Positions 9,493-41,559 of a stretch of DNA of 64,000 bases are shown in pieces. Positions within the stretch are counted from its first letter, which is position 1; every line of letters begins with the position of its first letter. The DNA is from an uncultured Flavobacteriales bacterium (lineage in GTDB: Bacteria; Bacteroidota; Bacteroidia; Flavobacteriales_G; Salibacteraceae). The translations under genes were made by a program, and so were the position numbers. The stretch covers positions 866,861 through 930,860 of the forward strand of contig CALSRJ010000001.1 in the NCBI GenBank assembly GCA_943788725.1. Direction: 5' to 3'. Below the pieces are notes generated by a model. That model had not been told where the DNA came from. It did no database searches and saw nothing but the letters and a program-made list of their open reading frames with translations.

Positions 9493-9544
9493 AATTTTGT
9501 GTGTTAAGTTTACGAATGGTTGGAACATCATGCTTACTTCAACT

Positions 9545-16224: not shown

Positions 16225-16341
16225 TTCAATGAAATAGCCGCAAAGCTATTTAAACTGCGAATATCAATTCCAAAAAGTGGAGCCTCTGAATGCACCAAAC
16301 TAATTGATTTGTGCTTCTTTTGCGCCGTTCATACATAAGTC

Positions 16342-24788: not shown

Positions 24789-25521
24789 AAAGAATAAAAA
24801 TACTTGAGCATAGATCTGGATACTTTTGTCCCAACTTAAAACACCCCGTGAGATATTCATCACTAATAATGTCAGTCTTGAGCAATGCGTCCCATTGGAA
24901 ATTTGCTAGAGCCTTGAAAAATATCCCGCCCCGATAAATCACTCGAAATCCAGCCATCTTGGCTTCAGACTCCAACGTATCCAAAGAGTAAGTTATTCGA
25001 TGCCCGTGGTCAAATTCCGCTGGAGTAATTGCTGAATTAGAAGCCAAAACACCCATATGCACAGCAATCTGCCGAGAAGGCGCATTTGCATTCGGACAGA
25101 CTAGGAAAAACCTACCATTATCTGACAACCACTCATCATGAATTCGTTTCAACACGCCAATACGATCATCGATATGCTCCAAAACATGAGTCATAATTAT
25201 ATTATCAAACTTATCATGCAGTCTGACATCTTCAAATCGCCCATGAATAAAATCCACCTTCCCATCTTTACAATTGATACTATTTCTCGATATCTCTATT
25301 GCATCCTTTGACGCCTCAACACCTACAATGCGATCAAAGTATGGTAGCAATCTCTCAGTAAAGAGCCCTTTTGAGCTTCCCAATTCCAAAACTTCTTTTC
25401 TTCCGACAAAATATTTAATAAATGATTCTAGCATAAACCTATGCATCACATCAATATCAAAATCATAGTTGTACTTGTGGCCTTTAGAATCGGTCAATTC
25501 AGCATTAAAATCTCGCTCCAT
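24769..25521 (-). CDS. Class I SAM-dependent methyltransferase
   Basis: 250 residues. Motif I VLELGSSKGLFTERLLPYFD, the acidic loop VGVEASKDAIEIS, and motif IV-like NIIMTHVLEHIDD are visible (Methyltransf_11/23 type). The C-terminal half with HGHRITYSLDTLESEAKMAGF is like small-molecule or sugar methyltransferases. It lies 7 bases after the GNAT gene and is probably part of the block running from the aminotransferase at 29685. Substrate likely a sugar nucleotide or glycan; unproven. Confidence 0.82.
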   Translation of the reverse strand: MERDFNAELTDSKGHKYNYDFDIDVMHRFMLESFIKYFVGRKEVLELGSSKGLFTERLLPYFDRIVGVEASKDAIEISRNSINCKDGKVDFIHGRFEDVRLHDKFDNIIMTHVLEHIDDRIGVLKRIHDEWLSDNGRFFLVCPNANAPSRQIAVHMGVLASNSAITPAEFDHGHRITYSLDTLESEAKMAGFRVIYRGGIFFKALANFQWDALLKTDIISDEYLTGCFKLGQKYPDLCSSIFILCEKGEG

Positions 25522-25528
25522 ATTCCAT

Positions 25529-25969
25529 TTAAATTAAGTCTTTCTGCATTTCAATTTCTTCGCCCAAATTAACTTCTCTCGAATTAACCTCAAATCCTAG
25601 CCCTCTATAAAGTGAAATCGCGGGACGGTTTTCTTTTCCCACCCTCAAAACAATAGATTTTAGATGACGAGAATTGCATTCTGCAAATAATCTCTGCATC
25701 AGCTTACGTCCAACTCCTTTACCCTGAAAATTCGGCAAAACTGAAACATTCGTGATAAATACATCTTCACCCTGGTTGAAGTACGCAGCAACTAAACCAA
25801 CCAACTTAGTTTTCTCGAAAATTTCAATTCGCGTAGCGCGCATCTCCAATCGAATCGAATATTCTTGCAAATCGGTCCGTTCACTCAGAGCTGGCACGAA
25901 TAGTAAATCACATTTTGTCAAATGTTCAAGTATCTGTTCTGAATTGCTGGTATTAATCTGGATATTCAT
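25529..25969 (-). CDS. GNAT-family N-acetyltransferase
   Basis: 146 residues, typical GNAT size. The acetyl-CoA loop is NFQGKGVGRKLMQRLF (Q/RxxGxG/A), preceded by ITNVSVLPN on strand 4 and followed by LRVGKENRPAISLYRGLGFEV. In this setting it would acetylate the amino group installed by the DegT aminotransferase, as in synthesis of N-acetylated aminosugars. The start overlaps the preceding gene by one base. Confidence 0.82.
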   Translation of the reverse strand: MNIQINTSNSEQILEHLTKCDLLFVPALSERTDLQEYSIRLEMRATRIEIFEKTKLVGLVAAYFNQGEDVFITNVSVLPNFQGKGVGRKLMQRLFAECNSRHLKSIVLRVGKENRPAISLYRGLGFEVNSREVNLGEEIEMQKDLI

Positions 25970-26934
25970 TACGGATTATACTCTACACATTCAGCAAGTC
26001 CAAAACCTTCAAGTCCGAATTTATTTCCGTTATACAACAAATACATTTTATCCCCAGAGACAAAGAGAGACGGGTAGCACTGCATTTGAGAGTCCCAAGT
26101 ATATCCATCCGGGTTTAAAATTTCAATTTGCAAATCATCTCGATTCCAATTCTCTAAATCTCTTGACCAGGCATACCCAATCCTATACCCAAGATTCGAC
26201 TTCGTTCTGAATCCCCTATGAGATCTGTAACAAAACACCATATGATACAAGCCCTTATAAAAAGAAACACTTGGTAGAGCTTGACATTCAAACTCTCCTA
26301 TTCTGTCTGGTATAATTCCACCTTGATTCTCCGAGTTCCAATTGGTCAAATCATCTGACTTTGACATTCCGATTTTATAAACACGAGCAACAGGCTCTCC
26401 ATTCATTTCATCGAGCCAATTCGTTCCGTAAATGTAGAACATGTAAAATGAACCCTCAAACTCCCTAACGAATGCATCTCCTACTAAAAATGGTTCTTTT
26501 AACGAAGCTGATTTCACCGGCCCAAGATGGCGCCGAACAAAGTTCACACCCTCATCATTAGATTCGACAATCCCAACAGCTGTCTCCACCGGTACCGATA
26601 TTCTACGACTCCAACCAGTAGTAAAAGCAAACAATTTATCTCTGTAAGTCATCGGGCTAAATGGGAAGATTCCATGCTCATCAAAGGTGCCCAACTCACC
26701 TAATCCGATAACTGGTGAGGGGTTCGACGTAATTATTTTTTCGAAATCAGGTGAAAAGTCTACGTAAAAAGGATAGCTTAAGTAGTTTTCTCCATCCTTA
26801 AGACGAGAAGTGTAATAAACCCTAATCTTAGATTGATGTGTCAGTGCTTGTGGGGATTGAGCAAAAGAATATTGACCACCCATGTGAATAGACGAAACCG
26901 AGAAAATTAAACCCCTATTAACAAACTTGATCAT
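25969..26934 (-). CDS. Five-bladed beta-propeller, GH43/GH32-like protein (copy 2)
   Basis: 321 residues, no signal peptide. Blade-type repeats of the glycosidase clan: KIRVYYTSRLKDG, ELGTFDEHGIFPFSP, AFTTGWSRRISVPV, EPFLVGDAFVREFEGSFYMFYIYG, LYHMVFCYRSHRGF and GYRIGYAWSRDLENWNRDD. It is a tandem paralog of the next upstream gene, with the same order of motifs. Such cytoplasmic propellers appear in surface-polysaccharide loci, and their activity is not settled: they could hydrolyse, transfer or only bind a sugar. Overlaps its paralog by 4 bases. Confidence 0.75.
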   Translation of the reverse strand: MIKFVNRGLIFSVSSIHMGGQYSFAQSPQALTHQSKIRVYYTSRLKDGENYLSYPFYVDFSPDFEKIITSNPSPVIGLGELGTFDEHGIFPFSPMTYRDKLFAFTTGWSRRISVPVETAVGIVESNDEGVNFVRRHLGPVKSASLKEPFLVGDAFVREFEGSFYMFYIYGTNWLDEMNGEPVARVYKIGMSKSDDLTNWNSENQGGIIPDRIGEFECQALPSVSFYKGLYHMVFCYRSHRGFRTKSNLGYRIGYAWSRDLENWNRDDLQIEILNPDGYTWDSQMQCYPSLFVSGDKMYLLYNGNKFGLEGFGLAECVEYNP

Positions 26935-27899
26935 ATCGAATTATTTCTATTCAATTTGGCCACTCCAAAGCCAGTTTTGCCGACAGAATTTCCCAGGTAG
27001 AGCATATATAAATCCTTTTTATGAAAAAAAACATGGGGGTAGCTAATCATTTCAGAATCCCACCCTGACTCTGAAATATCCAAATTCGATGCTCTGTCAT
27101 CTCTTGTCCAATGATACAGATCTGTAGAATGAGCATATCCAATCCTATAACCGTTTTCCCTATTTCTGTAATTAATGCTTCTTCTATAACAGAAAAACAT
27201 ATGATATGAGCCTTCAAACCAGAACACATCCGGACTAGCTTGGGCCTCATCAGACTCTAATTTCACCTCGACTAAGTCTCTGTCAACTTTCTTCCAAATC
27301 TCACAGTCATCTGATTCCGCCATTCTAATTCTATAAACCGGTTCTGCCCTGCCTTCATGCTTCACCCACTTTTTACCCGCAATGTAGAATAGATAATATC
27401 GCTCATTAAACTTTCGAACTTTTGGACCGCTCAAGACAAATGGCTCATTGGGAGAATATTCCAATATAGGGCCCTTTCCGAGCCGCTTGAATGATTTTCC
27501 ATCCAGACTTTCAGCCACACCAATCGAAGTATTAAAAGGGACCGAAACACTTCTGGTCCATCCCGCATAGAACATACGGTATTTCGAGCCAACCTTAATC
27601 ACACTAACCGGATAAATACCAAATTCATCAAAAGTGCCACGGTCACCAAGCTCGAGAACTGGATATCTGGAAATAGTGCGCACGCACATCAAGTTCTCGC
27701 CATCTACTTCAATGAACCCAGAGTTAGAAGTGTAATTGCCATCAGATTCCATAGGGGGCCTTGTGGAAAAATATATCCGATATCCATCTTCTATTTCCAA
27801 CACGGCTGGCGCTTGTGCATACTGGTGCATCCAACTAGGCGATTCAAACTTTTGAGGATCGAACAATAGTCCGAGCTTTATCCAATCGAAATAATTCAT
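26931..27899 (-). CDS. Five-bladed beta-propeller, GH43/GH32-like protein (copy 1)
   Basis: 322 residues, no signal peptide. Motifs shared with copy 2 in the same order: GYRIYFSTRPP, ELGDRGTFDEFGIYPVSV, MFYAGWTRSVSVPF, EPFVLSGPKVRKF, SYHMFFCYRRSINYR and GYRIGYAHSTDLYHWTRDD. The conserved acidic residue in GTFDE and the clustered aromatic residues fit a propeller with a central sugar site. It starts one base after the WbqC gene ends and belongs to a compact block. Duplicated locally from a common ancestor. Confidence 0.75.
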   Translation of the reverse strand: MNYFDWIKLGLLFDPQKFESPSWMHQYAQAPAVLEIEDGYRIYFSTRPPMESDGNYTSNSGFIEVDGENLMCVRTISRYPVLELGDRGTFDEFGIYPVSVIKVGSKYRMFYAGWTRSVSVPFNTSIGVAESLDGKSFKRLGKGPILEYSPNEPFVLSGPKVRKFNERYYLFYIAGKKWVKHEGRAEPVYRIRMAESDDCEIWKKVDRDLVEVKLESDEAQASPDVFWFEGSYHMFFCYRRSINYRNRENGYRIGYAHSTDLYHWTRDDRASNLDISESGWDSEMISYPHVFFHKKDLYMLYLGNSVGKTGFGVAKLNRNNSI

Positions 27900-28607
27900 T
27901 TATATCAGGGTGTATCTTTTAATAAGTCCGTTTTGAATTTCATCCTTTGAATTAAACATCATAACATCCAATATTGACAAACTCGGCTCAAATTCATTTT
28001 GAAATTGTGGGTAAACGATGCCTTCAGGTTTAAGAAAACGTAAATTAATAGCATTGTCAAGAAACCGGTCACGTTCATACAACGAGACACCCCCTATAGG
28101 ATTATGATAATGCGATGCTCCGGTCCTAGAGCATATCTCAAGAACTCTGTCACTTCCTTTACAGCTAGAATCTAAGTCTAATGAAGACGAAACCACAAAT
28201 TGACAATTCAGCTCCAACCAATTCGAAATCTCGAGAATACTGTGCATGACATATCGAAACAGTGAAATCTCATCATACATTATTATACTTTCTATGACGG
28301 AAATCACAGAACCATAATAAGGCGCCTTTCGATAAACTCCCTCAATCTTCCTGAGTATGGAGCGCCTCCCATTCAGCACAAAGTCTGAACTAATTGTTCT
28401 CGATCCAATTTTTTCATAATCAGAATCTTTTACGAGCGGTATTGTAAAATAATCCCACCCATTACTCGACAAAATTCGATTTCTGTTAATCCATCCTCTT
28501 TTGGTATACTCCACATCGTCATAAATAACAAATTGATCCACACTCTCAATAAGTTGAAAATAACCCAAATACGGCATGAAATAAGGCTGCATTATCGCAA
28601 GTTTCAT
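27900..28607 (-). CDS. WbqC family protein
   Basis: 235 residues. MKLAIMQPYFMPYLGYFQL is the family's signature start, followed by VIYDDVEYTKRGWINRNRI and YHNPIGGVSLY. WbqC proteins occur beside DegT aminotransferases and acetyltransferases in O-antigen loci; their biochemical role is not established, though a step in modified aminosugar synthesis is often suggested. One base separates it from the aminotransferase stop. A second, divergent family member lies at 41566. Confidence 0.88.
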   Translation of the reverse strand: MKLAIMQPYFMPYLGYFQLIESVDQFVIYDDVEYTKRGWINRNRILSSNGWDYFTIPLVKDSDYEKIGSRTISSDFVLNGRRSILRKIEGVYRKAPYYGSVISVIESIIMYDEISLFRYVMHSILEISNWLELNCQFVVSSSLDLDSSCKGSDRVLEICSRTGASHYHNPIGGVSLYERDRFLDNAINLRFLKPEGIVYPQFQNEFEPSLSILDVMMFNSKDEIQNGLIKRYTLI

Positions 28608-28608
28608 A

Positions 28609-29685
28609 TCAACTCAAATTGTGTTTAATCAAACTGCAAATCAATTCTACTTCTTTATGGCTTAAATCATAATATAATGGAAGACAAAGAATACAATCAG
28701 CGAGGTTCTCAGAATGAGGCATTGAGATAGGCTCAACATAATCCAGTAAATTCAATGATGGTGAAAAATATATCCTGCTATATATATCATGCTCCTTGAG
28801 CTTCTCATGCACCGCATCTCTTATTGATTTTGAGCTAAAGACCACCGGCATATATGAAAAATTATACTTGAGATTCGAACCGAGACTTTGAAACTTAACA
28901 CCACTATTACTCAAACTGTCTTTATACTGCATATAAAGAGCCCTTCGCTTCTCAAGAATTTCATCAAAAAATGGTAAAACCGAGAGCCCCATGGCCGCGT
29001 GAATCTCCGAGTTTTTGGCATTAATCCCTAATCCGCCGAAGTTCTCAGGCCCATCATGTCCAAAATTTCGCGCCAACTCTATGGCCCGGGTAGTTTCCGC
29101 ATCTTTAGCCACCAAAGCCCCGCCTTCAGCGCTATGTAACATCTTTGTCGCGTGCAAGCTTAAACAGGAGATATCTCCGAAATTCAACACACTTTTTCCG
29201 GCTATTTCTACCCCGATACAATGAGCCGCGTCGTAAATAACTTTTAAATTATATGTTTTGGCTATTCTCTCAATTTTCTCTATATCAACAGGGTTGCCAA
29301 AAACATGAGTAACAAGAATCGCTGTCGTATCATCAGTTATTTTTTCTTCTATATGTTCCGGATCAATATTGAACGATTCTGGGTTAATATCACAAAACAC
29401 AGGATCACATCCACTCCAGATAATACTACTTGTTGTTGCTACATAAGAAAAAGGTGTGGTAATAACCTTGCCTTGAACTCCTAAAACCTTAATAGCAATT
29501 TGCAAAGCCAAAGTACCATTTGACACGAACGTGAAATTTTCAAGGTAAAATCTTTCCCGCATCTCAGTCTCATACATTTTAACAAGTGGGCCATCGTTGG
29601 TTAACAAGCATCTATCCCAAATACCTTCGGTGTAGGCATCAAATATCTTTTTGGGCGGCATAAAGGGTCGAGTCACGGGTATCAT
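28609..29685 (-). CDS. DegT/DnrJ/EryC1/StrS-family sugar aminotransferase
   Basis: 358 residues. PLP-enzyme marks: FVSNGTLALQIAIKVL (cofactor phosphate), VIYDAAHCIGVEI (Asp to the pyridine N) and SLHATKMLHSAEGGALV (Schiff-base Lys). It converts a 4- or 3-keto nucleotide sugar to the amino sugar. With GNAT, WbqC and methyltransferase genes downstream it forms a probable N-acylated aminosugar pathway. Intact, unlike the WecE-like copy at 13431. Confidence 0.9.
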   Translation of the reverse strand: MIPVTRPFMPPKKIFDAYTEGIWDRCLLTNDGPLVKMYETEMRERFYLENFTFVSNGTLALQIAIKVLGVQGKVITTPFSYVATTSSIIWSGCDPVFCDINPESFNIDPEHIEEKITDDTTAILVTHVFGNPVDIEKIERIAKTYNLKVIYDAAHCIGVEIAGKSVLNFGDISCLSLHATKMLHSAEGGALVAKDAETTRAIELARNFGHDGPENFGGLGINAKNSEIHAAMGLSVLPFFDEILEKRRALYMQYKDSLSNSGVKFQSLGSNLKYNFSYMPVVFSSKSIRDAVHEKLKEHDIYSRIYFSPSLNLLDYVEPISMPHSENLADCILCLPLYYDLSHKEVELICSLIKHNLS

Positions 29686-29722
29686 GAATACAGATTATTT
29701 CGAAGCATTTAGAATAGGGAAA

Positions 29723-30400
29723 TCACGCTGAGAAGAAGTTCTCCCAAGGAACGAACAAAAACTCTGAATAACTGCTTGGATCTCTCAGGTTTATTTCTAA
29801 AAATCTATCCTGCTCCCTCTTAAAATACTGGCGAACAGATTGATTATGTAGGTTATATGAAGCTTTCAAAATCGTTTCATTATAAAGGTCATCATCAGGC
29901 GTTCCAAACATTAATTTAGTCGCATCATATGCATATCCTTTATTCACATAATTCGCCTCTCTCAGTTGACCAGCATTTGGCACGCCATTTCCTTTATTGT
30001 AGAAATTAGAATGAAAACGACAAATACTATTATACCAATCCTCATCACTGTCACGAACAGTCAGAACAAACTTGCTATTAGGAAAAACCTGGTCCAAATA
30101 CACATATAAATAAGGGAGACTAAAAGGAATATCTTGAAAAGCCTCGGCAGTTCTGCAATAATTTCTAATTCTGAAATATTCTCTTGCTCGATATGAATAA
30201 AGTAATCTCTCAGCTGTCCTTTGATTTCCTACTACATAACCTAAATCAACAAGTGATCTTTGCACAGAGGTGGTTCCAGTTTTGTTGAATCCAATACAGA
30301 AGACCTTTGGTTCACTTTTGCTCAGCACACGAAGTCGATGTCTCAGGTTTCTCCCCAAGTTTACGATTCTTTTACCCTTGTTCTTCAATCTGAAAGTCAC
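29723..30400 (-). CDS. Sulfotransferase family protein
   Basis: 225 residues from a GTG at 30400. VFCIGFNKTGTTSVQRSLVD carries the P-loop in the NKTGTT form (residues 36-44) of bacterial sulfotransferase-like proteins, and KFVLTVRDSDEDWYNSI is the 3'-phosphate segment. The basic N-terminus (RLKNKGKRIVNLGR) may contact the membrane. A gap of 108 bases with no clear signal separates it from the sulfotransferase upstream. Predicted glycan sulfation. Confidence 0.75.
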   Translation of the reverse strand: MTFRLKNKGKRIVNLGRNLRHRLRVLSKSEPKVFCIGFNKTGTTSVQRSLVDLGYVVGNQRTAERLLYSYRAREYFRIRNYCRTAEAFQDIPFSLPYLYVYLDQVFPNSKFVLTVRDSDEDWYNSICRFHSNFYNKGNGVPNAGQLREANYVNKGYAYDATKLMFGTPDDDLYNETILKASYNLHNQSVRQYFKREQDRFLEINLRDPSSYSEFLFVPWENFFSA

Positions 30401-30508
30401 AATTAGATATAGTTAACATAACCCCACCACAGTTAAAATTTGAAAATTATAAGACTCACAAGAATCTAGATATTCGCAATCAACACATCTATACATTGAA
30501 TATACTGG

Positions 30509-31363
30509 TCACCAATCAGGATTCCAACCAATCAACTCGCTAAGTCTGCTATTGTGCTTAAAGTATATATCTCGCAAGAACTCACGATCGTCAACGCTAA
30601 TATTCGTCTTATATCCACCACTATTAATTTTGACGAATTCTAAATCCCCCTTTCCAAATGGCTCCAAATCAAGAAAGGCACAAGTACGATTTAAAATCAT
30701 TTCGAAGTCCCTCGCAAGGTCTTCAAAATCAACAATTACAAAATTTTTGTCACTGAAATAATTCAAGTATTTTTCAAGTTGTTCGGCATAAAAGCCCCTC
30801 CGGATAATTGACGGTTCTTGAATCTCAGTACCAATAATTTTCAACTCAATTTCCAAACACTCTCTAAACGAAGGGAAACTTAGACGATTTTTAAACAAAA
30901 ATGTGAAAAGACCATTCTCAACTCCAGGGCTCAAGCCTTTTTCAAGCCTCGACACTAGCCCTTTTTCATAAAATTGCCTATACATATTCCATGCTGAATA
31001 GGCCCTATCCACGGGGTTTCGCAATACTACTATAAATTTCAATTTTGGATTATAGCGCATCAACCTGAATGCTACCTGGTCATAGTATAGGTAAGATGGG
31101 CTAGACTCAAAAAACAACCTTGACTTCCAAAAAAAACTTTTAAAGTGCGCCTCATAATCGTTAATTCCAACTCCGTAATTGATCTCTTGGTCAAAATAAT
31201 GCAACTCCTTCGGTGAAGACCCAATCAATTTTGGATGCTTATCGAGATAATAATGCAACGCCGAAGTGCCAGCCTTCTGCGCACCAATAATCATGAAAGA
31301 AGGCGCATTTCCTGGTAGGAAATAATCCATTTTTTGACTCAGCCTTCTTTTAACGTGTTTCAC
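30509..31363 (-). CDS. Sulfotransferase (Sulfotransfer_1 type)
   Basis: 284 residues. The P-loop IIGAQKAGTSALHYYL is at about 25-40 and the 3'-phosphate motif FIVVLRNPVDRAYSAWNMY at about 109-127, both canonical. FFESSPSYLYY and the C-terminal GGYKTNISVDDREFLRDIY fit heparan-sulfate-type and bacterial glycan sulfotransferases. It overlaps the end of the flippase gene by 14 bases. The best-supported PAPS enzyme of the set. Confidence 0.88.
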   Translation of the reverse strand: MKHVKRRLSQKMDYFLPGNAPSFMIIGAQKAGTSALHYYLDKHPKLIGSSPKELHYFDQEINYGVGINDYEAHFKSFFWKSRLFFESSPSYLYYDQVAFRLMRYNPKLKFIVVLRNPVDRAYSAWNMYRQFYEKGLVSRLEKGLSPGVENGLFTFLFKNRLSFPSFRECLEIELKIIGTEIQEPSIIRRGFYAEQLEKYLNYFSDKNFVIVDFEDLARDFEMILNRTCAFLDLEPFGKGDLEFVKINSGGYKTNISVDDREFLRDIYFKHNSRLSELIGWNPDW

Positions 31364-32810
31364 CTTTGCTCACTTTTATGTGTAAAAGACTTGCTAATTG
31401 CTTGAATTCATAGATTACAGGTGACGAAATCATTCGAAGTAGTGCCGCATACGAAACCACATAAACAAGCACTCTTAGTATCCACGAAACAAAGCTCATT
31501 TCCGTCAAGAAAGTATTAAGCAATAATATGATTGCACTCGAAAAAAAGGCATATGTAATTAATGGCAACACCTGTTTTTTGAAAGAGACTTTAAGAATCC
31601 TATGAGTGAGATAGGAGTTTAACACCCCAAATAATTACTGATACCAAAACACTCACTTTGAGGAATTCTAAAAGACCAAAGAAGTATGCAAAGGCAAAAG
31701 GTATAAAAGATAGAACCTTTCTAAGGTTCCCAATATGAAAATTTTCCCTTGAACACCCTCTTGCTAAAAAGGCATTCACTACCAATGACCCTAATGGAAA
31801 AGAAAACGCCTTGAGTATTAGTATCGAAAACAAAGGGATAGACTCTACCCATTGAATACCAAATAGAAATACTATCAGCTTATCAGCGGTGAGGAAGAAA
31901 AATCCCATTAAAAAAAATCGCGATACTAGAAACAACATCCGTCAGTTTAAGAAAAACACTGTTAAACCTCAAAATATCATCCTTAATATTGACCATGGCG
32001 GGGAAAAAAAACTTTTCCGAGGCTTGTTGAAGTGTTCTGGGTAATTAGATTATTCAATCCAAGAGCTCTATTGTAAAAGCCAAGAGTGTTTGCAGAAAAG
32101 AGTCTTCCAATAATCAAAGAGTCTAATTGGGCAATTAATTTATTCAGGGATGTCGCAGTGAACACATAAAATGAAAAACGAAACAATCTTCTTATTTCGT
32201 CAAATGAAAACTCAACTTTCGGCCTCCAACTTACCAGACTCCATACTAAGATGGCCGCAACAATCGACGAAAAAACATGCTGGAATACAAGGGCGTAAAC
32301 CCCAAAGCCAAAATAGGCCAAAATGACAGCCATAAGACCTCCAGACACTTGAGCAGCCAAACTTCTAACTGATAATAATTTAAAATTGAGCTCCTTACTC
32401 AAGATTGCTATATGAACAACAGTTAAACTACTAAATATCAATGATAAAGATAACCATCTTAGCAGGCTCACTACTTCTTCAGTGTGGTAAAAGCGCGCTA
32501 TCAAAGGAGATCCTACAAATAGAATTATTGAAAGTAAGACCGCACTTGTGATGTTCAGAAAGAATACTGAAGAGTAAGTTAAATCTGAGTTATCATCACT
32601 TTGAATAAGAGCTGATGATAGCCCCATTTGAATGAATACATGCCCTACTGAAATGAATACCAATGCCATCGCGACAGAACCAAAATCACTAGGAGTTAAC
32701 ATTCTCGCCAGAAAAATTGATAGAATCAATCTCACAATTTGACCGCCAAAATTCCCTAGCAGGTCCCACAGAAAAGCGATTGAAGATTTTGAACGAAGTT
32801 CACCGCTCAT
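31350..32810 (-). pseudogene. wzx: Wzx-type polysaccharide flippase, three homopolymer frameshifts
   Basis: The first 275 codons (MSGELRSKSSIAFLWDLLGN, then ARMLTPSDFGSVAMALVF) are a PST/MATE-type flippase N-terminus. Two more pieces, LTADKLIVFLFGIQWVESI and SYLTHRILKVSFKKQVLPL, complete a protein of about 485 residues with 12-14 helices. The frames break at an A8 run at 32004-32011, an A8 run at 31910-31917 and a C4 run at 31625-31628; removing one base from each restores one frame with sensible sequence. It moves lipid-linked repeat units across the inner membrane. Sequencing error, or slippage-prone tracts that switch the gene. Confidence 0.8.
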
Positions 32811-32825
32811 ATTTATCGAAATTGT

Positions 32826-35204
32826 CTATTCCCCATGTTCAGAATAGCTTCCATATCCTGATTTACCGTAACTGTACCTACCTCCGTAACCATAGCCACC
32901 GTAGCCATATTGGGCATAATAATAGTCGAGACGAGAAATCTGCTCTTCATTGAGTACTAAGGCTGCCCCATTTACACTATTCGTTGACAACAATTTATCT
33001 ATATAGTCGAGAGATGTTTTAGATGTCGAGCGCGAATTCAACACAAACAAATTCACATCTGAAATCTTCGTCAACATTAATGCGTCCGAAATCAAAGAAA
33101 CAGGGGGCGTGTCCAAGAATACATATTCGTAGTGCTCCCGTGCATAATCTATAATATCCCCGAGTTTCTCTCGCATAATCAATTCCGATGCGTTTGGAGG
33201 AATCGGACCAGAAGTAATAACATCCAAGGTTTGAACTTCCGTTTTTTGCACTACATCTTCTATTCGCTCGTTGTCTATCAATAATGAACTAATGCCTTTC
33301 TCATTTGGCAATTCCATTGCCTTTGCCAATCTTGGTTTATGAAGGTCGAAGTCCATGATAAGCACCCTACGCTCAGCAATTGCAAGCACCGATGCTAAGT
33401 TCACACTAGTGAATGTCTTTCCTTCTCCTGGTAAAAGCGATGTTACTAAGATCACATTACTCTTAGCGTCAGTTACTAAAAATTGAAGATTTGTACGCAA
33501 TGCCCTGAACGTTTGAGATATTTCAGAACGTTCACTTCCGCTTTTTAGGCGAAACGTACTATCCAATTCTTTCAATTTTGGAATACTTCCTAGGATTGTA
33601 ATGCTCGTCATAGACTGCAGCTGTCCCAAACTTTTGATACGCAGGAAGAAAATTTCTTTGATTAATAAGAGTAAAATGGCAAGACCCAATCCTATCACAG
33701 CCCCAATCAAATTCATCTTCAGCTTATTCGGATACACAACACCTACAGCCCTCGACTGCTCGATAATCTTTGTTTCAGGCACAAAACCAGCCCTTGCAAT
33801 GACTGTCTCCGCTCTTCTGGACAAAAGAAACGAGTACAATTCCTCATTTACAGCTAACCTCCGCTCAATATTTAAAATCTGTCTCTGAGTTTTAGGAATA
33901 TTTTTTATCCTTCCCTCCATAGCTGAAATTTTGTCATCCAAATCAGCAATCGCCTCTAGCACAGCAGTTTTTTGTGAATCAATGTATCGGATAAGATCAA
34001 CTTTCATTCCCTGAATTCTCTCGAGTAAAGACAAGGCCTTTGGGCTTTGAGACGTATTACTATTCATCAATTGACCATACTGTCCTCGCGTCTCATATAA
34101 AGCCTTTACTTGACGAACCAATTCAGGATCAGTATTCGCGACAAACAGGTTGGGGGGCAGTAGACTCTCCAAGTCCTCTTCCTTTAGGAGGTAAGTCGTA
34201 AGATCTTCTAATGCGTCAACTTGATCCTGAAACTGTCTACTTTGAACATCCATTTGAATTAAACGGTTAAAATATGTCTCCTCCTCTCTTGATAAATTCA
34301 AAATGGAAGCATCTTGCTTATATTGCTCTAACTCATTCTCGATCTCATTGATAATCCCAGTGACCTCATTAAGTTGAATGTCTATATAACTAAGCGTATT
34401 TTCATTCACCTGACGCTTATTCTCCAAAGTGCTGATGATGTAAATATTTGCAAGTGAATCAAGAACTTCCACTGCCCGCTCGGGAATCTCATCTCTCAGC
34501 GTTACTTCAATAATGCTAGTGTAGTCTAAACTCGAAACGCTCAGCGCAGACTGATATTTCTGAATAAGTTTTGACTTTCTGAGAACGGCAAATTGGTAAT
34601 TGATCTGGGAAAGTGATGGAAGAGATATCGTTGTGAGGTTAGGCTCCTTGTTTATACGCAAGAACAAGCCATGATCCAGAATAAGCTCACCAAACCTGTA
34701 CTTTTTAGACTTCACCTCGTCTTTGTAATTGTAGCTAAGTTGATAATATATCGTATCAATGATGGTTAAATCAAAAACAAGACCTGAAAAGGAACTAGTC
34801 CGTTGATCAGTCTGAACTTTGAAAGGCATGTGCTTATATATTTCAGTGACCTTCAAACGACCAACAATAAAATATGACACATCAAGAGGTAACTTATCAA
34901 GAACCTTTTCGATCAATCCACTCGATTTAATCACACGCATTTGACTTGCCGTCTCTTCATAGGAAGCATAGCGTGAGTTGAAGCCCAAGCCTTTGTACAT
35001 CTCGCTTTGATAATTGTATGTTTCGTTCGACTTAAGTAGGATTTGACATTTTGCAGCATGAATATCAGGCTGCCGATGTGTATATAAGTACGTTATCGCG
35101 AAGGACAGCGAAGGCAACAAAACCAACCAATACCAATTCGAAAAAATAATTGAAATCAGGCGAACTACGTCCTTTCTAGATAGTATCTCGGAGGATTGTG
35201 ACAC
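32826..35204 (-). CDS. wzc: Wzc-type polysaccharide co-polymerase and tyrosine autokinase
   Basis: 792 residues from a GTG at 35204. A Wzz domain with a first membrane helix at about 22-41, a long periplasmic region with coiled coils (about 265-480) and a second helix at about 505-525. The BY-kinase domain has Walker A LLPGEGKTF (about 590-598), Walker A' LIMDFDLHKPRL (about 615-626) and Walker B YVFLDTPP (about 694-701). The tail contains eleven tyrosines in its last 35 residues, the autophosphorylation cluster. It controls chain length and export with Wzx/Wzy. No Wza-like export gene is in the window. Confidence 0.93.
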   Translation of the reverse strand: MSQSSEILSRKDVVRLISIIFSNWYWLVLLPSLSFAITYLYTHRQPDIHAAKCQILLKSNETYNYQSEMYKGLGFNSRYASYEETASQMRVIKSSGLIEKVLDKLPLDVSYFIVGRLKVTEIYKHMPFKVQTDQRTSSFSGLVFDLTIIDTIYYQLSYNYKDEVKSKKYRFGELILDHGLFLRINKEPNLTTISLPSLSQINYQFAVLRKSKLIQKYQSALSVSSLDYTSIIEVTLRDEIPERAVEVLDSLANIYIISTLENKRQVNENTLSYIDIQLNEVTGIINEIENELEQYKQDASILNLSREEETYFNRLIQMDVQSRQFQDQVDALEDLTTYLLKEEDLESLLPPNLFVANTDPELVRQVKALYETRGQYGQLMNSNTSQSPKALSLLERIQGMKVDLIRYIDSQKTAVLEAIADLDDKISAMEGRIKNIPKTQRQILNIERRLAVNEELYSFLLSRRAETVIARAGFVPETKIIEQSRAVGVVYPNKLKMNLIGAVIGLGLAILLLLIKEIFFLRIKSLGQLQSMTSITILGSIPKLKELDSTFRLKSGSERSEISQTFRALRTNLQFLVTDAKSNVILVTSLLPGEGKTFTSVNLASVLAIAERRVLIMDFDLHKPRLAKAMELPNEKGISSLLIDNERIEDVVQKTEVQTLDVITSGPIPPNASELIMREKLGDIIDYAREHYEYVFLDTPPVSLISDALMLTKISDVNLFVLNSRSTSKTSLDYIDKLLSTNSVNGAALVLNEEQISRLDYYYAQYGYGGYGYGGRYSYGKSGYGSYSEHGE

Positions 35205-35403: not shown

Positions 35404-38400
35404 ATGCCTTTTAAAACATTAGTCTTTTTAATCATATTTTCTTTCGGGAATTATTTCTTGATCGCACAGTCGGGCCCCGGTGGTGTGGGAGGTTCATCAT
35501 CTATCCTCACATGGTTAGATGCCTCTACGCTTGGCTTCTCTAACGGTAATTCTGTTGGCGTTTGGACGGATAATAGTGGAAATGGAAATAGTTTTGGGCA
35601 AGCTAATGCTTCGAGTAAACCGACCTTTCTTACAAACCAAATTAACGGACTTCCAGCATTGGATTTTGACGGGGGTGATCTACTCATTCTCCCTCCGGCT
35701 TCGGATTTTGATAACCAATCGGATTTATCATGGTTTATTGTTGCTGAAACAGATGCGACGTCTAGCGCTCAAAATTTGTTAAGCACTACCTATGCTGGAG
35801 GCTCGGCTGCTAGTTTCAAATGGAATTCTCTTTTCAGGTCTGGGAAACACGAGGAATACATTAAAAACGATAATGGCTCCTACGTATCACGCACAACGAA
35901 CGGCGTAAACACTTCGCCGGTAATTCGGAGTGTTGCATTGACTGGCTCAAGTACGGATGTGATGACACGTTATGTTAACGGTCTACTTACTCACACTGCA
36001 TCCATTTCACCTTTTTCCGTTGGATTCCATAATGGCTCCACGATCGGAAGAAATTCTACTACTGGTAATTGGTATTTAGACGGCAGAATTGCAGAGATTG
36101 TTATCTTCAATGACGCACTGAATGTTTCTCAGATTAAAATCATCAATAACCATCTTTCTACCAAGTATGGTATTGCTGTATCGAATGATTTGTACAGTTT
36201 TGATGGAACTCACCCCAACGAACTAGCCGGCATCGGCCAAGAATCCTCCACCGACAACCACACCGACGCCCAAGGAACTGGAATCGTACGTATTAGCACA
36301 CCAAGTTCTCTCAACGACGGAGATTACATGCTGTGGGGGCATAATGATGGCGCTCTTGCCAGTCAAACATCTGAATTTCCAGCAGCACTTATTTCTGCGG
36401 GTGGCACTCGTTTGACACGTGAATGGGTTGCCGATATAACTAATGGTAACGTGGGTACTGTTACCATGCAATGGGATATTTCTGGTTTCTCGCTTGGGGC
36501 CATGCCTTCACGTTATCGCATCATGGTGGATGATGATGGAGACTTCAGCAATGGGGTTACCTTGAGTATTACCCCCACTGGCACGACTACTTTGACCTTT
36601 ACAGGAGCAGACTTGTATACAAATGGACCGTATTTCACGCTGGTATACTCTGGCGATGACTGCCTGTCTGTAAACGTCTTCAGCACAGATGACTGGACGG
36701 ACGGTCCCGGCGGAATCTGGGATTGTGGAAATACGCCTGACAGTGCGGTAGACGTGACCATTTCAGGCCTTACCACCATTCAGGTCTCCGGAACCCAGTC
36801 TTGTAACAATCTCTTAGTGGAGACCGATGCCACGCTTCAGCTATCGGCTGGAGCAACTTTGATCGTTAAAGGGGATGTAGACCTTCAATCCGGAGCTACC
36901 ATCACCTGCGATGCCGCTTCAACCATCATTTTCAGAAGAAACGACGGAAGCATCCAACTCGTCGACAACAGCACAGGAGGGACTGTAACCTTTGGCAACG
37001 TAACGGCCGCAGCGGCCAACAACGTGCGCTTCTTCGGTGGAAGCTTTGCACATACCGGTGGTCTTTCTTTGAATAAGGCCTTGGCCCAAAATACAGGTTC
37101 ATGGACCTTCGTTTCAAATGCATCGGGAACCGCCCATGTTTCAAACGTTGGGTCAGGAACGATCAGCGGTGGTTCGTACACCATTCAACGCTTCATTGGA
37201 GGAAGAGCAGCCAATTGGGGGGATGTCTCGAATTTTGGTTTGTCGGGCATGACGATCGAAGACATGGATGATAATATCTTCATCTCTGGTATAACTGGCG
37301 GTGATGGAAACGCTGCTGGCTTTGTTTCAATGTGGCGATTTGACAACAGCAGTGACTCCTACGTAGCTCCGACCAACACCTCAGAAGTCATGAGTTTAGG
37401 TACAAATGGTTACGAAACGTGGCTTGCTGATGACCCTACAACTTGGACCGCGAAGCAAATCGACGCAACAAGAACAGGCCTCAACCTCAGCTCCACCAAC
37501 ATCTCCATCAATGGAGTCGGTGGCGGATGGAACTTGATCGGTAACCCTTTCCCTGGATTCTTGAATTGGGGAGACATCAAAGGCACCTACTCCATAGTAG
37601 GCAATGCGTTTTGGTATTACGATGCGGATTCTGCCCAATACAACTTTAGATCTGGGAATACCTTCATTCCACCGGGACAAGGATTTTGGGTGAATACCAG
37701 CTCTAGCTATACCATGACACTTACTACGGCCATGCTTCGCTCAGACCTGAACAACAGTCAGTTCTTTAAGTCCGAGCCTTTGGATGAATTCAAAATCGAA
37801 GTAAAGGACAAGGATGAAATCTTCGGAAGCGCTATTCGGGTTCGCAAAGACGAGTTTGCCTTTGCTGGCGTGGATGAATTAGACATTCCACCATTGAAAG
37901 TCCCTGACGCACGTGCCATCAACATGTGGATGGATTATGCAGGCGATGAAATGATGGTGAACTACATCAATCCAGAAGAACAACACGTTGAGATTCCTGT
38001 GGTGATCGAAGGTGGACTTCCTGGCGAATACACCATGAACTTCAAGGGACTTTCTAAGTTCCGCGACTTCCAATGCATGAACTTGTACAACGAGCAAACC
38101 GGTGATCAGATTGAAATCAGCTCGGGTACGCATTACACGATCAAGATCGATGAGGATTTGGCAGCGCAGCACTTTAAGATATTGTTGAGTAAGCAGGATT
38201 ACGAGGATTGCATGGCGCCAACGGATCTGTCTGAAGAGCAACTGCAAGTATTTGCAACGAACAAAACGATCGTAGCGGACTTCTTCCTCGATCGCAGCGC
38301 CATAGCCAACATCAACGTATACGATGTACTTGGCAACTTGATCTACACTGCTCAAGAGACCGTTGGATACTCCCGTGAAAACATTGATCTCAACCACGTT

Positions 38401-38472
38401 CCCGGTGGTGTATACTTCATTAACATAGACGTTAACGGTACCGTGAAGTCTGAAAAGGTAATTTTGCAGTAA
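35404..38472 (+). CDS. T9SS-exported lectin-like protein with type A sorting domain
   Basis: 1022 residues from the ATG at 35404. Signal peptide about 1-21 (ends FLIAQ). A concanavalin-A/LamG-like domain occupies about 25-260 (TWLDASTLGF, WTDNSGNGNSF, PALDFDGGD, YLDGRIAEIVIFN), followed by LSTKYGI and AGIGQE as in DUF8202-type regions, then beta-helix-like repeats (about 450-590). The C-terminal about 75 residues are a T9SS type A domain: NINVYDVLGNLIY, VPGGVYFINI and SEKVILQ. It is predicted to be exported through T9SS and attached to the surface. Its stop overlaps the next start (TAATG), tying it to the PID-CTERM gene. Confidence 0.85.
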   Translation: MPFKTLVFLIIFSFGNYFLIAQSGPGGVGGSSSILTWLDASTLGFSNGNSVGVWTDNSGNGNSFGQANASSKPTFLTNQINGLPALDFDGGDLLILPPASDFDNQSDLSWFIVAETDATSSAQNLLSTTYAGGSAASFKWNSLFRSGKHEEYIKNDNGSYVSRTTNGVNTSPVIRSVALTGSSTDVMTRYVNGLLTHTASISPFSVGFHNGSTIGRNSTTGNWYLDGRIAEIVIFNDALNVSQIKIINNHLSTKYGIAVSNDLYSFDGTHPNELAGIGQESSTDNHTDAQGTGIVRISTPSSLNDGDYMLWGHNDGALASQTSEFPAALISAGGTRLTREWVADITNGNVGTVTMQWDISGFSLGAMPSRYRIMVDDDGDFSNGVTLSITPTGTTTLTFTGADLYTNGPYFTLVYSGDDCLSVNVFSTDDWTDGPGGIWDCGNTPDSAVDVTISGLTTIQVSGTQSCNNLLVETDATLQLSAGATLIVKGDVDLQSGATITCDAASTIIFRRNDGSIQLVDNSTGGTVTFGNVTAAAANNVRFFGGSFAHTGGLSLNKALAQNTGSWTFVSNASGTAHVSNVGSGTISGGSYTIQRFIGGRAANWGDVSNFGLSGMTIEDMDDNIFISGITGGDGNAAGFVSMWRFDNSSDSYVAPTNTSEVMSLGTNGYETWLADDPTTWTAKQIDATRTGLNLSSTNISINGVGGGWNLIGNPFPGFLNWGDIKGTYSIVGNAFWYYDADSAQYNFRSGNTFIPPGQGFWVNTSSSYTMTLTTAMLRSDLNNSQFFKSEPLDEFKIEVKDKDEIFGSAIRVRKDEFAFAGVDELDIPPLKVPDARAINMWMDYAGDEMMVNYINPEEQHVEIPVVIEGGLPGEYTMNFKGLSKFRDFQCMNLYNEQTGDQIEISSGTHYTIKIDEDLAAQHFKILLSKQDYEDCMAPTDLSEEQLQVFATNKTIVADFFLDRSAIANINVYDVLGNLIYTAQETVGYSRENIDLNHVPGGVYFINIDVNGTVKSEKVILQ

Positions 38473-38693
38473 TGAATCGAAAGCAACTTCTCCTTGGAGC
38501 CCTCATGATTGTGCTCTTTGTCGTTTGTTCTGACGCCGTAATGGCACAACCTGGTGGTGGACCTCCTACGGGTGGTGGCGGACCTGGTTGCTGGCCTCCT
38601 CCCTGTATTCCTATCGATGGTGGAATGAGCTTTCTCGTTGCGCTGGGTCTTGCCTTTGGTGGTAAGAAGATGATGGAGATGCGGGCGAAGTAA
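38472..38693 (+). CDS. Tiny PID-CTERM-like exosortase substrate
   Basis: 73 residues. Signal peptide 1-25 (ends VMA), a Gly/Pro-rich linker 26-45 with two Cys (GCWPPPC), the motif PIDGG at 47-51, a short hydrophobic segment 52-63 and a basic tail beginning KK at 65. This tripartite end matches the PID-CTERM sorting signal of Bacteroidota, likely handled by the XrtF exosortase encoded 550 bases away. After both cleavages only about 20-25 residues would remain. It starts within the stop of the T9SS gene (TAATG), so the two are translationally coupled. The role of the mature peptide is unknown. Confidence 0.72.
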   Translation: MNRKQLLLGALMIVLFVVCSDAVMAQPGGGPPTGGGGPGCWPPPCIPIDGGMSFLVALGLAFGGKKMMEMRAK

Positions 38694-38720
38694 CGCCTAT
38701 CGCTTTCTAAGAAACTTGAA

Positions 38721-38746
38721 GCCATTCCTAACGGGGTGGCTTTTTT
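38721..38746 (+). terminator. Rho-independent terminator
   Basis: GCCATTCC-TAAC-GGGGTGGC forms an 8-base stem (two G-U pairs) followed by six T. It lies 28 bases after the stop of the PID-CTERM gene and ends the T9SS/PID-CTERM transcript. Confidence 0.8.
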
Positions 38747-38800
38747 CATGGATAAATTTTACTGGTCAAAGTTTGACAGCCTGCTTGCCTCGCCCTCAGT

Positions 38801-39265
38801 CTATACCCGCAAGGACTTCCTCAGCATGATCCCTGGAATCATGATCATCAGCAACAAAGGCGATTGAGCAATGCCCATCAGGAAGCGGGCAATGATGTAG
38901 AGGTCTTCTACGCTGTTGGTTACATAACCCAAGCCCATGGCCGCGATGGCGCCTACCGTGAGCACCCCATAGATGACCCCCAGTTCCTTCCAGTAGTTGG
39001 CGTTGAAGATCACCTTCAGGACTCCGACAATCGCCACGTAGAACAACGCAGCAAAGAAGACCGTCAAAAACCACTTCGCGTAGTACAGGGTATAGTAATC
39101 GGTGCTCTTTAAGAAGGGGATCCTATCAGAAGCACGAGACGGTTCATCGTACCACAACGCAAACAATTGCTCGTTGATGTGTACGAAAATGAACTCGCGA
39201 TAAAAGCCGAGGATGATCACGCCAATCACCGAAAGGATGATCCAAAGCCTACGCTTCCCCTTCAT
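38801..39265 (-). CDS. Exosortase F system-associated membrane protein
   Basis: 154 residues with four hydrophobic segments (about 6-24, 65-85, 95-115, 125-145). It sits directly behind XrtF with a 17-base overlap, the place of the XrtF-associated protein in Flavobacteriia. Its N-terminal half reads GFYREFIFVHINEQLFALWY. It probably assists the sorting enzyme in the inner membrane; no catalytic motif is visible. Confidence 0.75.
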   Translation of the reverse strand: MKGKRRLWIILSVIGVIILGFYREFIFVHINEQLFALWYDEPSRASDRIPFLKSTDYYTLYYAKWFLTVFFAALFYVAIVGVLKVIFNANYWKELGVIYGVLTVGAIAAMGLGYVTNSVEDLYIIARFLMGIAQSPLLLMIMIPGIMLRKSLRV

Positions 39266-39815
39266 CGCTCTCTGTCTTTAGCGCTTCCAGACCCGATAGT
39301 TTGGTCGCCCACAAGTACCACAGCCAGAAGACAAAACCATAGACCAACATGGTGAACGTATAGGTATGGTTGAAATCCAAGACCTCAGGATCCGGGAAGT
39401 AGTAGATGATCAGCGAAAGGGCCACAATGCGCACGATGTTGATGGCGTGGATGGCGATCAAGCCCATCGGAATGAACCACAATTTCTTTTTCAAGGGACC
39501 CGGATAAGCGATGACGAATCCGGTGAAGAGTGCAAACAAGGTCAGCCCATTGCACGGATCTCCGATCCACAGGCCGTGGGTGCCATCGATGCCGATGGTC
39601 CTTATGTTTTCTACGTGGCTTGCTGCCAGGGTAACGTACCCGAGGGTATCCAACACGAAGTAGGATGCCTGCTCCAAGGTCTTGATGACGAACATGTCCA
39701 ATCCCCCCAACGGGTGCAGCCATTGGTCATAGACGATGTACCATACGATGTATAAGCCCAAGCCCTTCAACAGGAACTGGTACAGTGGGTCGGCCCATAT
39801 CTTTTTCGGATTCAC
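39249..39815 (-). CDS. xrtF: Exosortase family protein XrtF
   Basis: 188 residues from a GTG at 39815; the open frame extends up to 39908 but that part is polar and unlike the family. The exosortase triad is visible: Cys88 in GDPCNGLTLF, Arg129 in INIVRIVAL and His150 in DFNHTYTF, each at a membrane-helix border. Exosortases cleave C-terminal sorting signals at the inner membrane and pass the protein to an anchor. Upstream TATCTTCG is one base off the -7 consensus. Expected substrate: the PID-CTERM protein at 38472. Confidence 0.88.
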   Translation of the reverse strand: MNPKKIWADPLYQFLLKGLGLYIVWYIVYDQWLHPLGGLDMFVIKTLEQASYFVLDTLGYVTLAASHVENIRTIGIDGTHGLWIGDPCNGLTLFALFTGFVIAYPGPLKKKLWFIPMGLIAIHAINIVRIVALSLIIYYFPDPEVLDFNHTYTFTMLVYGFVFWLWYLWATKLSGLEALKTESDEGEA

Positions 39816-39975: not shown

Positions 39976-41559
39976 ATGAATATTGCGATATACAGCATCA
40001 TAGCCATTGGCTACTTCGTTGGATTCTTCTTCCTTTTCCCGAAAGCGGGCAGAAAGTCTTGGGAAGCACTGGTTCCTGGCTATAACTTCTTTGTTCTGAC
40101 ACGTGTCATCCAAAAGCCCTGGTGGTGGATCTTATTGCTCATCCTTCCTGGCGTCAACATCTTGATGCTCATGGTGATGAACTCCAACTTGGCTTCGGTT
40201 TTTGGTAAGCTCGACAAACAATCGCAAGTCTTCGCGATCTTCTTGCCGTTCATCGCTTTTCCGCTTTGGGGCAAACAAGACAAACTCCCCTACCTAGGTC
40301 CCATCGACCGAAAGAAATTTCCTAAATCCAGCGCACGCGAGTGGGGAGATGCCATCGTTTTCGCCGTAGTAGCCGCAAGCATCATTCGAACCTACTTCCT
40401 AGAAGCATTCACCATCCCGACCAGCTCCATGGAAAAGACCTTGCTGATCGGAGACTACCTCTTCGTGAGCAAGATGGCCTACGGCCCCAAGGTTCCTCAA
40501 ACACCCTTGAGTTTCCCCTTTGCACACCACAGCTTGCCTTGGTTGGAAACGCCCAGTTACCTCGAGTGGATGGAATTGGACTACCATCGCCTCCTCGGGT
40601 TTGGGGATGTGGAACGCAACGACATTGTCGTGTTCAACTACCCCGAAGGAGATACCGTACTGCTCGCCTATCAAAGCAATCGAAGCTACAACCAGGTGGT
40701 GCGCGACGTCATGTCTGACCTGAAACGCGCGAGACATCAACGGCAAGGACAGCAGCCGCTCAGTTTTGAGCAATACGACAAGGCAGCCCGCAAGATGATC
40801 AAAGAGCGGATGGAATACACCGTTCGCCCCGTTGACAAGCGTGAACACTACATCAAGCGCTGCGTGGCCGTGCCCGGCGATAAGATCGTTGTACAAGATG
40901 CGCGCCTCTTCATCAACGACGAAATGGCTTTCATTCCACCGGATTTTCAGTTCAAGTACATCGTAGACAAGAAAGGCTTCCTCAACAAGCGCATCCTGAA
41001 GGAGCAATTCGACGTGAATTACCAGGATACTGACCCGCGTGTGGCGCAATCTTCTGAAGGATTTAAGATCCCACTCACGCTCGATGCGTCCACTGAACTT
41101 GCAACCTTGGACGGAGTAAACAGCGTCACCCTCGATGTAACGCCACGCGGCGCCAATGCGCAATACCCGATCTTCCCGAACAACCCGAAGTACGATTGGT
41201 CTGTCGACTATTGGGGGCCACTCACCGTTCCAGAGAAAGGCACGAGCGTAGAGCTCAACCTTATGAACTTGCCTTTCTATGAGCGCATCATCAAAGTGTA
41301 CGAGGGACATAACCTCAAAGTGCGGGACGGCAAGATCCTGATCGATGGTGCGGAAGCTACTTCTTACACCTTTGAGATGGACTACTACTTCATGATGGGA
41401 GACAATCGGCACAATTCTGCCGACTCTCGTTATTGGGGATTCGTTCCTGAAGACCACATTGTAGGCAAGGCAGCCTTTGTGTGGCTATCCATCGATCCTG
41501 AATTGGGACTCTTCGACGGAAAGATCCGCTTCTCACGCATGTTCTCCATTCCTGAATAA
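39976..41559 (+). CDS. lepB: Signal peptidase I
   Basis: 527 residues, the long Bacteroidota form. Membrane helices at about 1-20, 48-68 and 84-97, and another at about 124-140 before the catalytic TIPTSSMEKTL (Ser151). The general-base Lys294 lies in HYIKRCVAVPGD, and MMGDNRHNSADSRYWG is box E. A long insert of about 120 residues separates the two catalytic boxes from box E. It removes signal peptides of Sec-exported proteins. The WbqC-like gene follows 6 bases later. The large antisense frames here are shadows. Confidence 0.94.
   Translation: MNIAIYSIIAIGYFVGFFFLFPKAGRKSWEALVPGYNFFVLTRVIQKPWWWILLLILPGVNILMLMVMNSNLASVFGKLDKQSQVFAIFLPFIAFPLWGKQDKLPYLGPIDRKKFPKSSAREWGDAIVFAVVAASIIRTYFLEAFTIPTSSMEKTLLIGDYLFVSKMAYGPKVPQTPLSFPFAHHSLPWLETPSYLEWMELDYHRLLGFGDVERNDIVVFNYPEGDTVLLAYQSNRSYNQVVRDVMSDLKRARHQRQGQQPLSFEQYDKAARKMIKERMEYTVRPVDKREHYIKRCVAVPGDKIVVQDARLFINDEMAFIPPDFQFKYIVDKKGFLNKRILKEQFDVNYQDTDPRVAQSSEGFKIPLTLDASTELATLDGVNSVTLDVTPRGANAQYPIFPNNPKYDWSVDYWGPLTVPEKGTSVELNLMNLPFYERIIKVYEGHNLKVRDGKILIDGAEATSYTFEMDYYFMMGDNRHNSADSRYWGFVPEDHIVGKAAFVWLSIDPELGLFDGKIRFSRMFSIPE

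Follow-up and report, generated by a model that had tools for sequence, protein, structure and literature searches.

In the window, that is, the whole stretch of 64,000 nucleotides that was analysed, a T9SS type A cargo gene (35404–38472, plus strand), which encodes an adhesin-like protein of 1022 amino acids with a signal peptide, is followed by the gene of a PID-CTERM micro-protein of 73 amino acids (38472–38693, plus strand), the only PID of this genome. The two genes overlap as TAATG (38470–38474, plus strand), as the initial annotation had read. The string itself is not rare in the window (115 occurrences against 141 expected), so it was given no statistical weight and the overlap is meaningful only as a gene junction. 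Facing the pair on the minus strand are the genes of an exosortase of 188 amino acids (39249–39815) and of a membrane protein of 154 amino acids (38801–39265). Between the convergent genes there is a hairpin with a T tract (38718–38743; −15.6 kcal/mol, z −3.7) that is likely to be the terminator proposed earlier as the common end of the pair, although it is absent from the list of a consensus terminator scan. On the other side, a Wzc-type chain-length/tyrosine-kinase gene (32826–35204, minus strand; Wzz, GNVR and AAA_31 domains) diverges from the cargo gene and is followed by an exopolysaccharide gene cluster (14589–32810, minus strand), in which Pfam matches and open reading frames indicate sulfotransferases, GT11, epimerase, aminotransferase, glycosyltransferase and (broken) flippase genes. 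The cassette thus appears to be tied to a sulfated-exopolysaccharide locus.

The assignment of the large protein to the T9SS holds, since its C-terminal sorting domain (residues 960–1022; 38281–38469, plus strand) scores 36 bits against TIGR04183 (cut-off 23), in a match that covers profile positions 13–72 only, and also matches Por_Secre_tail. Secretion machinery is present in the genome (SprA, 2480.7 bits). A Laminin_G_3/ConA-like lectin domain (PF13385; residues 109–245; 35728–36138, plus strand) gives a weak match, 31.1 bits for a cut-off of 27.6, in a region of low pLDDT in the structure model. With a mean pLDDT of 69.9, the overall fold of this model was set aside, and only domain-sized matches were taken as meaningful, namely those to DUF3244 proteins and to the T9SS complex chains 8gl8_D and 8glk_D. 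The N-terminal part of about 250 residues is hypervariable, residues 1–250 being 19–48% identical to those of the sister-species copy (L032), and residues 851–1022 are 96–100% identical. The sorting domain is without the Y/F-P-N-P motif, which is usual but not obligatory. None of the 37 cargos at the first set of loci has xPNP, compared with 57 of 60 T9SS genes from elsewhere in this genome. In a second set, formed by 40 further PID sites that were picked without knowledge of the neighbouring gene, 7 of 23 cargos have it, and tails without PNP are found also in cargo homologs that are not paired with a PID. The PNP-less domain is therefore enriched among paired cargos, but it is not a defining mark of them. 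An RFxLxF strand ahead of the sorting domain was found in 19 of 23 cassette cargos and in 9 of 59 same-genome controls.

For the micro-protein, the match to the PID-CTERM family is above the cut-off (33.9 bits against NF046080, cut-off 26), in agreement with what had been proposed from its sequence. Its sorting signal consists of PIDGG, a hydrophobic segment and a basic KK end (38610–38672, plus strand; residues 47–67 of the protein, matched by NF046080). Removal of the signal peptide and cleavage at the PID motif are predicted to leave a peptide from Gln26 to about Asp49 (38547–38618, plus strand; QPGGGPPTGGGGPGCWPPPCIPID), which with 24 residues, rich in Gly/Pro and with two Cys, is the product that the initial annotation had anticipated at about 20–25. 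Both Cys belong to a CWPPPC motif (38589–38606, plus strand) that lies outside the NF046080 model and is conserved at XrtX loci; of 105 distinct PID proteins, 93 have two Cys at most 13 residues from the PID motif. The gene is a real one, as judged from a comparison with the L032 copy, in which 10 codons differ synonymously and 2 non-synonymously. It was also considered whether it could be a frame-shifted tail of the cargo; this was discarded, since the small frame begins at a start of its own and encodes a signal peptide, and the cargo already ends in a complete sorting domain. A disulfide between CWPPPC and a Cys of the cargo was suggested at first by the Cys ahead of the sorting domain, which seemed to go together with Cys-bearing peptides, but it is unsupported: the cargo has two invariant Cys (891 and 936) that most likely pair with each other. 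A full-length homolog of the cargo keeps both of them in a genome (G001) from which XrtX and PID are absent; a cargo thus does not require the peptide.

The enzyme that had been named XrtF turned out to be XrtX, with 193.4 bits for NF046081 (cut-off 170) and 89.1 bits for the XrtF model TIGR04128, just under its cut-off of 90; the convergent arrangement of the pair with the exosortase gene and its membrane-protein neighbour stands as described. Its catalytic residues are intact, Cys88 and Arg129 being found in all 88 aligned exosortases and His150 in 86 of them. For the accessory protein, the best match is NF046082 with 49.1 bits (E 4.7e-13), below the cut-off of 75, and its position and relatives fit the XrtX-associated family, whose gene is kept beside xrtX in related genomes. 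In other close relatives examined, the cargo, PID, xrtX and associated genes are all co-directional, and only the sister species (L032/G008) has the inversion too; the convergent order in the window is, by this comparison of gene orders, derived. PID proteins depend on an exosortase in the genome: they were found in 56 of 74 genomes that have one and in none of the 45 that lack it. A search of plasmids gave no PID match. The signals occur on small open frames only (50–189 amino acids), one per genome in most cases. From this strict co-occurrence and from the signal itself, we infer that PID proteins are processed by the exosortase.

A survey of recurrence had been named beforehand as the test that could refute the coupling of the two genes; it was run, and the pair recurs. 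The gene order at XrtX loci is Wzc (minus strand), an optional T9SS cargo, PID, xrtX and the associated gene, and of the 96 distinct PID sites that could be assessed, 36 have a cargo in the slot between Wzc and PID. When the 96 assessable PID proteins were checked for a real upstream gene, a same-strand T9SS type A gene lay directly 5' of PID in 36 of 40 tested, and in the second set this was so for all 24 candidate upstream genes, where T9SS cargos make up about 4% of the genes of this genome by a rough gene count; these counts are not phylogenetically independent, and many pairs of the first set are orthologous. Pairs are not restricted to exosortase loci. In fetched stretches free of exosortase genes, a T9SS type A gene stands immediately 5' of PID at 18 of 27 further sites, and several such unlinked pairs may coexist in one genome (four in G107; two each in G172, G135, G160 and G161). 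Altogether the pairs are spread over about a dozen family groups, with gaps between cargo and PID mostly below 100 nt. The cargos have little in common besides the T9SS tail, their N-terminal domains being unrelated (FG-GAP, ice-binding-like, PKD, nidogen (NIDO)/CHRD, LTD, LamG), so a generic service to the cargo fits. We consider the pairing of T9SS cargo and PID well supported by these gene neighbourhoods. The central proposal, that the two genes act as one unit in which two sorting systems meet, has come through its refutation test. The earlier interpretation as a whole is partly supported, as the enzyme was another one than named, pairs occur beyond exosortase loci, and among 78 loci scored on the exosortase tree there are 48 where PID and exosortase stand without an adjacent T9SS cargo. 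Since the cargo is missing at about half of the XrtX loci, the peptide would also work without a cargo in cis. In one cargo-free clade, the genomes are also without a clear cargo homolog extending to the sorting domain, so the peptide must have some role without such a partner.

The peptide may anchor, modify or report on the cargo, as was suggested at the outset. Our tentative preference, to which we give somewhat less than even chances, is that the locus is a display cassette formed by an adhesin-like T9SS cargo and a dedicated XrtX micro-substrate. The C-terminus of the cargo is occupied by the T9SS sorting domain, and therefore there is no room for an exosortase signal too. The small protein would lose its Sec signal and be cleaved near Pro-Ile-Asp, and a carrier, either lipid or saccharide, would be attached to the C-terminus newly formed on the remaining Gly/Pro peptide with its two Cys. 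An exosortase-made linker or anchor would thus be given in trans by a co-translated short peptide, in an amount and at a place matched to the cargo, and through a putative contact with the cargo it would help in retaining it at the surface, here within the sulfated-exopolysaccharide layer. Because the pair recurs with unrelated cargos across many Bacteroidia families, we think that both sorting systems probably work jointly on one surface product. With more reservation, we regard as possible a general split sorting system, in which T9SS cargos obtain their exosortase-made anchor in trans and one exosortase serves several unrelated adhesins, each via its own peptide.

The surroundings of PID allow for another reading, in which the product of XrtX is a peptide, linked to EPS or lipid, that serves to cap, anchor or export the polymer made beside Wzc, and the T9SS protein binds the exopolysaccharide and benefits only indirectly. 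Of 65 assessable loci, 57 have a divergent Wzc directly next to PID on its upstream side, those where no cargo is present included (median distance 116 nt), CWPPPC is kept whether or not a cargo is present, and PEP-CTERM/EpsH exosortases are associated with EPS (PMC1569441). In our opinion this reading is rather unlikely, as T9SS-PID pairs exist away from exosortase genes and a single polymer would not call for multiple PIDs in one genome with a separate cargo for each. It is improbable that there is a neighbourhood without joint function, where surface-protein and EPS genes cluster and a T9SS gene is a frequent passenger before PID. Such genes are certainly abundant (103 T9SS matches in the 2.93 Mb of this genome, 112 in a second genome and at least 150 in a third), and orthology and the empty slots agree with a passenger; the closely spaced unlinked pairs with unrelated cargos in so many family groups do not. 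Finally, a released signal or regulator co-expressed with the cargo, pheromone-like or reporting exosortase activity, would suit a very short product that has the conserved CWPPPC at XrtX loci and is single-copy in most genomes, but it is very unlikely, because the mature stretches of unlinked cassettes are of low complexity, often without Cys and different between copies in one genome, which is better suited to a spacer, and no recurring receptor-like gene was noticed in a non-systematic look at the loci inspected.

Turning back to the display cassette, an action of the peptide on the cargo would mean that two protein-sorting systems so far regarded as separate serve one surface product, and easily overlooked genes of 60–80 amino acids behind T9SS genes would then flag the adhesins so anchored. 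To the question of what Bacteroidota exosortases act on, the locus contributes a small, clearly bounded candidate substrate, which in many genomes accompanies a named secreted partner. In Flavobacterium johnsoniae, mutants that have lost xrtF or the gene of its partner are poor at surface colonisation and biofilm formation, as are T9SS mutants, and the XrtF substrates were left to future work (PMC10936215). In that system (Fjoh_1448/1449; TIGR04128), too, a small membrane protein accompanies a related exosortase. The window enzyme scores higher for XrtX, however, and in XrtF-type genomes, Flavobacteriaceae-like ones among them, PID lies near gldF/gldG or elsewhere, and in most cases the Cys pair is missing; the order T9SS-PID-XrtF does occur at one XrtF locus (L177). 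In P. gingivalis (Porphyromonas gingivalis), PorU attaches cargos that end in a type A sorting domain, as here, and a sugar chemistry shared by T9SS attachment and exosortases has already been speculated (PMC7468200). The difference here is a separate exosortase substrate encoded with the cargo and a sorting domain without the common PNP. With PEP-CTERM/EpsH (Haft 2006, PMC1569441) the locus shares a tripartite C-terminal signal, a Cys/Arg/His exosortase and adjoining EPS genes, including Wzc. PEP-CTERM is, however, borne by many diverse, larger proteins per genome, whereas PID is on small frames only, usually one, and often behind a T9SS cargo. Close to the locus is also XrtX/PID-CTERM itself (NF046081, NF046080, NF046082), as exosortase and small protein exceed their cut-offs and the associated membrane protein adjoins them. 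In the literature searched, no mention of PID-CTERM or of an XrtX exosortase was found. The family models name these parts, but they do not include the T9SS cargo as a recurrent partner, the unlinked pairs or the CWPPPC core, which the locus and its relatives add.

In the window, the gene of a T9SS type A cargo of 1022 residues (35404-38472, + strand) is joined by a TAATG overlap to that of a 73-residue PID-CTERM protein (38472-38693, +), after which come a hairpin and its T tract. Past the hairpin, on the opposite strand, lie the genes of a 154-residue, XrtX-associated-like membrane protein (38801-39265) and, beside it, of an exosortase (39249-39815). The initial annotation had described this arrangement correctly, except for naming the enzyme XrtF: the exosortase scores 89.1 bits against the XrtF profile, narrowly below the cut-off of 90, and 193.4 bits against the XrtX profile (cut-off 170), and it is therefore an XrtX. 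In the alignment, its Cys88, Arg129 and His150 are kept in 86-88 of 88 relatives. A long signal peptidase I (527 aa, 39976-41559, +) adjoins xrtX, as it does in several close relatives. On the far side of the cargo from PID there is a Wzc gene and, on that side, a long exopolysaccharide (EPS) cluster with at least four sulfotransferases. Next to Wzc, a Wzx-type flippase gene (31350-32810, -) is split by frameshifts or an assembly error into three ORFs (31983-32810, 31600-31938 and 31350-31625), and an IS110-like transposase gene (8479-9531, -) is found beside the polysaccharide region.

The coupling proposed for cargo and peptide is strengthened by its wide recurrence away from the exosortase. 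In a class-wide sample, PID was present in 56 of 119 genomes, all of them among the 74 bearing an exosortase. We read 40 further PID sites, selected blind to the neighbour gene, whose upstream genes included 24 T9SS candidates, all matching TIGR04183 (E up to 0.05). A T9SS gene stood immediately upstream of PID at 18 of the 27 assessable sites without exosortase in the fetched stretch, against a share of T9SS genes among all genes roughly estimated at 4% in the window's genome; ancestry makes pair counts non-independent. Unlinked sites spread over about a dozen family groups, with four pairs in genome G107 and two each in G172, G135, G160 and G161; four further examples (L174, L175, L183, L191) had been met before this sample. 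The N-terminal domains of the paired cargos differ (FG-GAP, ice-binding-like, PKD, NIDO with CHRD, LTD, LamG), and several pairs per genome with different cargos cannot all derive from one inherited arrangement.

The PID signal was seen on small frames only, as a rule in one copy per genome. Exactly two Cys occur within the 13 residues before Pro-Ile-Asp in 93 of 105 distinct PID proteins, most commonly as CWPPPC, a core that the NF046080 model does not span; the 11 proteins with no Cys there come from sites with an XrtF-type or sub-cut-off exosortase, or none nearby. In XrtF-type genomes (L172, L179, L181, L182) the PID gene adjoins the gliding genes gldF and gldG (TIGR03518, TIGR03521), beside which G016 has two PID genes, each with two Cys. 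In three genomes of one family (L276, L296, L297) an acyltransferase-like membrane protein precedes PID, with a T9SS gene one gene further upstream in L276.

Compared with its sister species (L032), the window cargo is 96-100% identical over the last 170 residues and 19-48% over the N-terminal 250 (35404-36153), a stretch replaced or fast-evolving between the two; the L033 and L040 cargos diverge comparably from each other in their N-terminal part. This is the pattern that would be expected of a swapped or fast-evolving exposed domain. Paired cargos are enriched for an RFxLxF strand before the sorting domain, seen in 13/37 from xrtX-type loci (controls, 3/60) and in 19/23 from the 40 further sites (same-genome controls, 9/59); at most, this strand is a candidate site of contact. 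The sorting domain of the window cargo (38281-38469) lacks the PNP motif common to this genome's other T9SS type A tails (57/60, versus 0/37 locus cargos).

Exosortases, found in EPS-producing bacteria, are membrane Cys proteases whose presumed reaction is transpeptidation at tripartite C-terminal signals (PMC1569441). From a T9SS cargo the sorting domain is removed, and the new C-terminus is attached to a linking sugar (PMC7468200). Colonisation and biofilm formation by F. johnsoniae require xrtF and its neighbour (PMC10936215). Taken with the pairing, these facts point most simply to a peptide that is an exosortase-made linker or anchor and would be supplied along with its cargo. In the leading rival reading, the peptide serves the EPS instead. 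We compared 80 loci with xrtX relatives in named genomes, plus 60 relatives searched in full. The commonest order is Wzc (-) and then, in the opposite direction, cargo, PID, xrtX and the associated gene; the xrtX-associated block is inverted in the window and in L032, with the cargo-PID junction kept in both. Divergent Wzc lies upstream of PID in 57 of 65 assessable loci, and the cargo, where present, occupies the gap (median distance 3.1 kb with cargo versus 0.1 kb without). Cargo presence is clustered on the exosortase tree (9 changes versus 25 in shuffles), entire clades being cargo-less. In several of these, a homolog reaching the sorting domain sits elsewhere, in three cases on the contig that carries PID and 25-50 kb away from it; in other clades, the search for such a homolog found none. 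XrtX loci without cargo favour the EPS role, whereas the unlinked T9SS-PID pairs favour the cargo role. The two are not fully separated by this evidence and may hold together.

For the recurrent T9SS-PID pair we found no description in the literature searched. XrtX and PID-CTERM are already curated families, so neither the enzyme nor the signal is new in kind.
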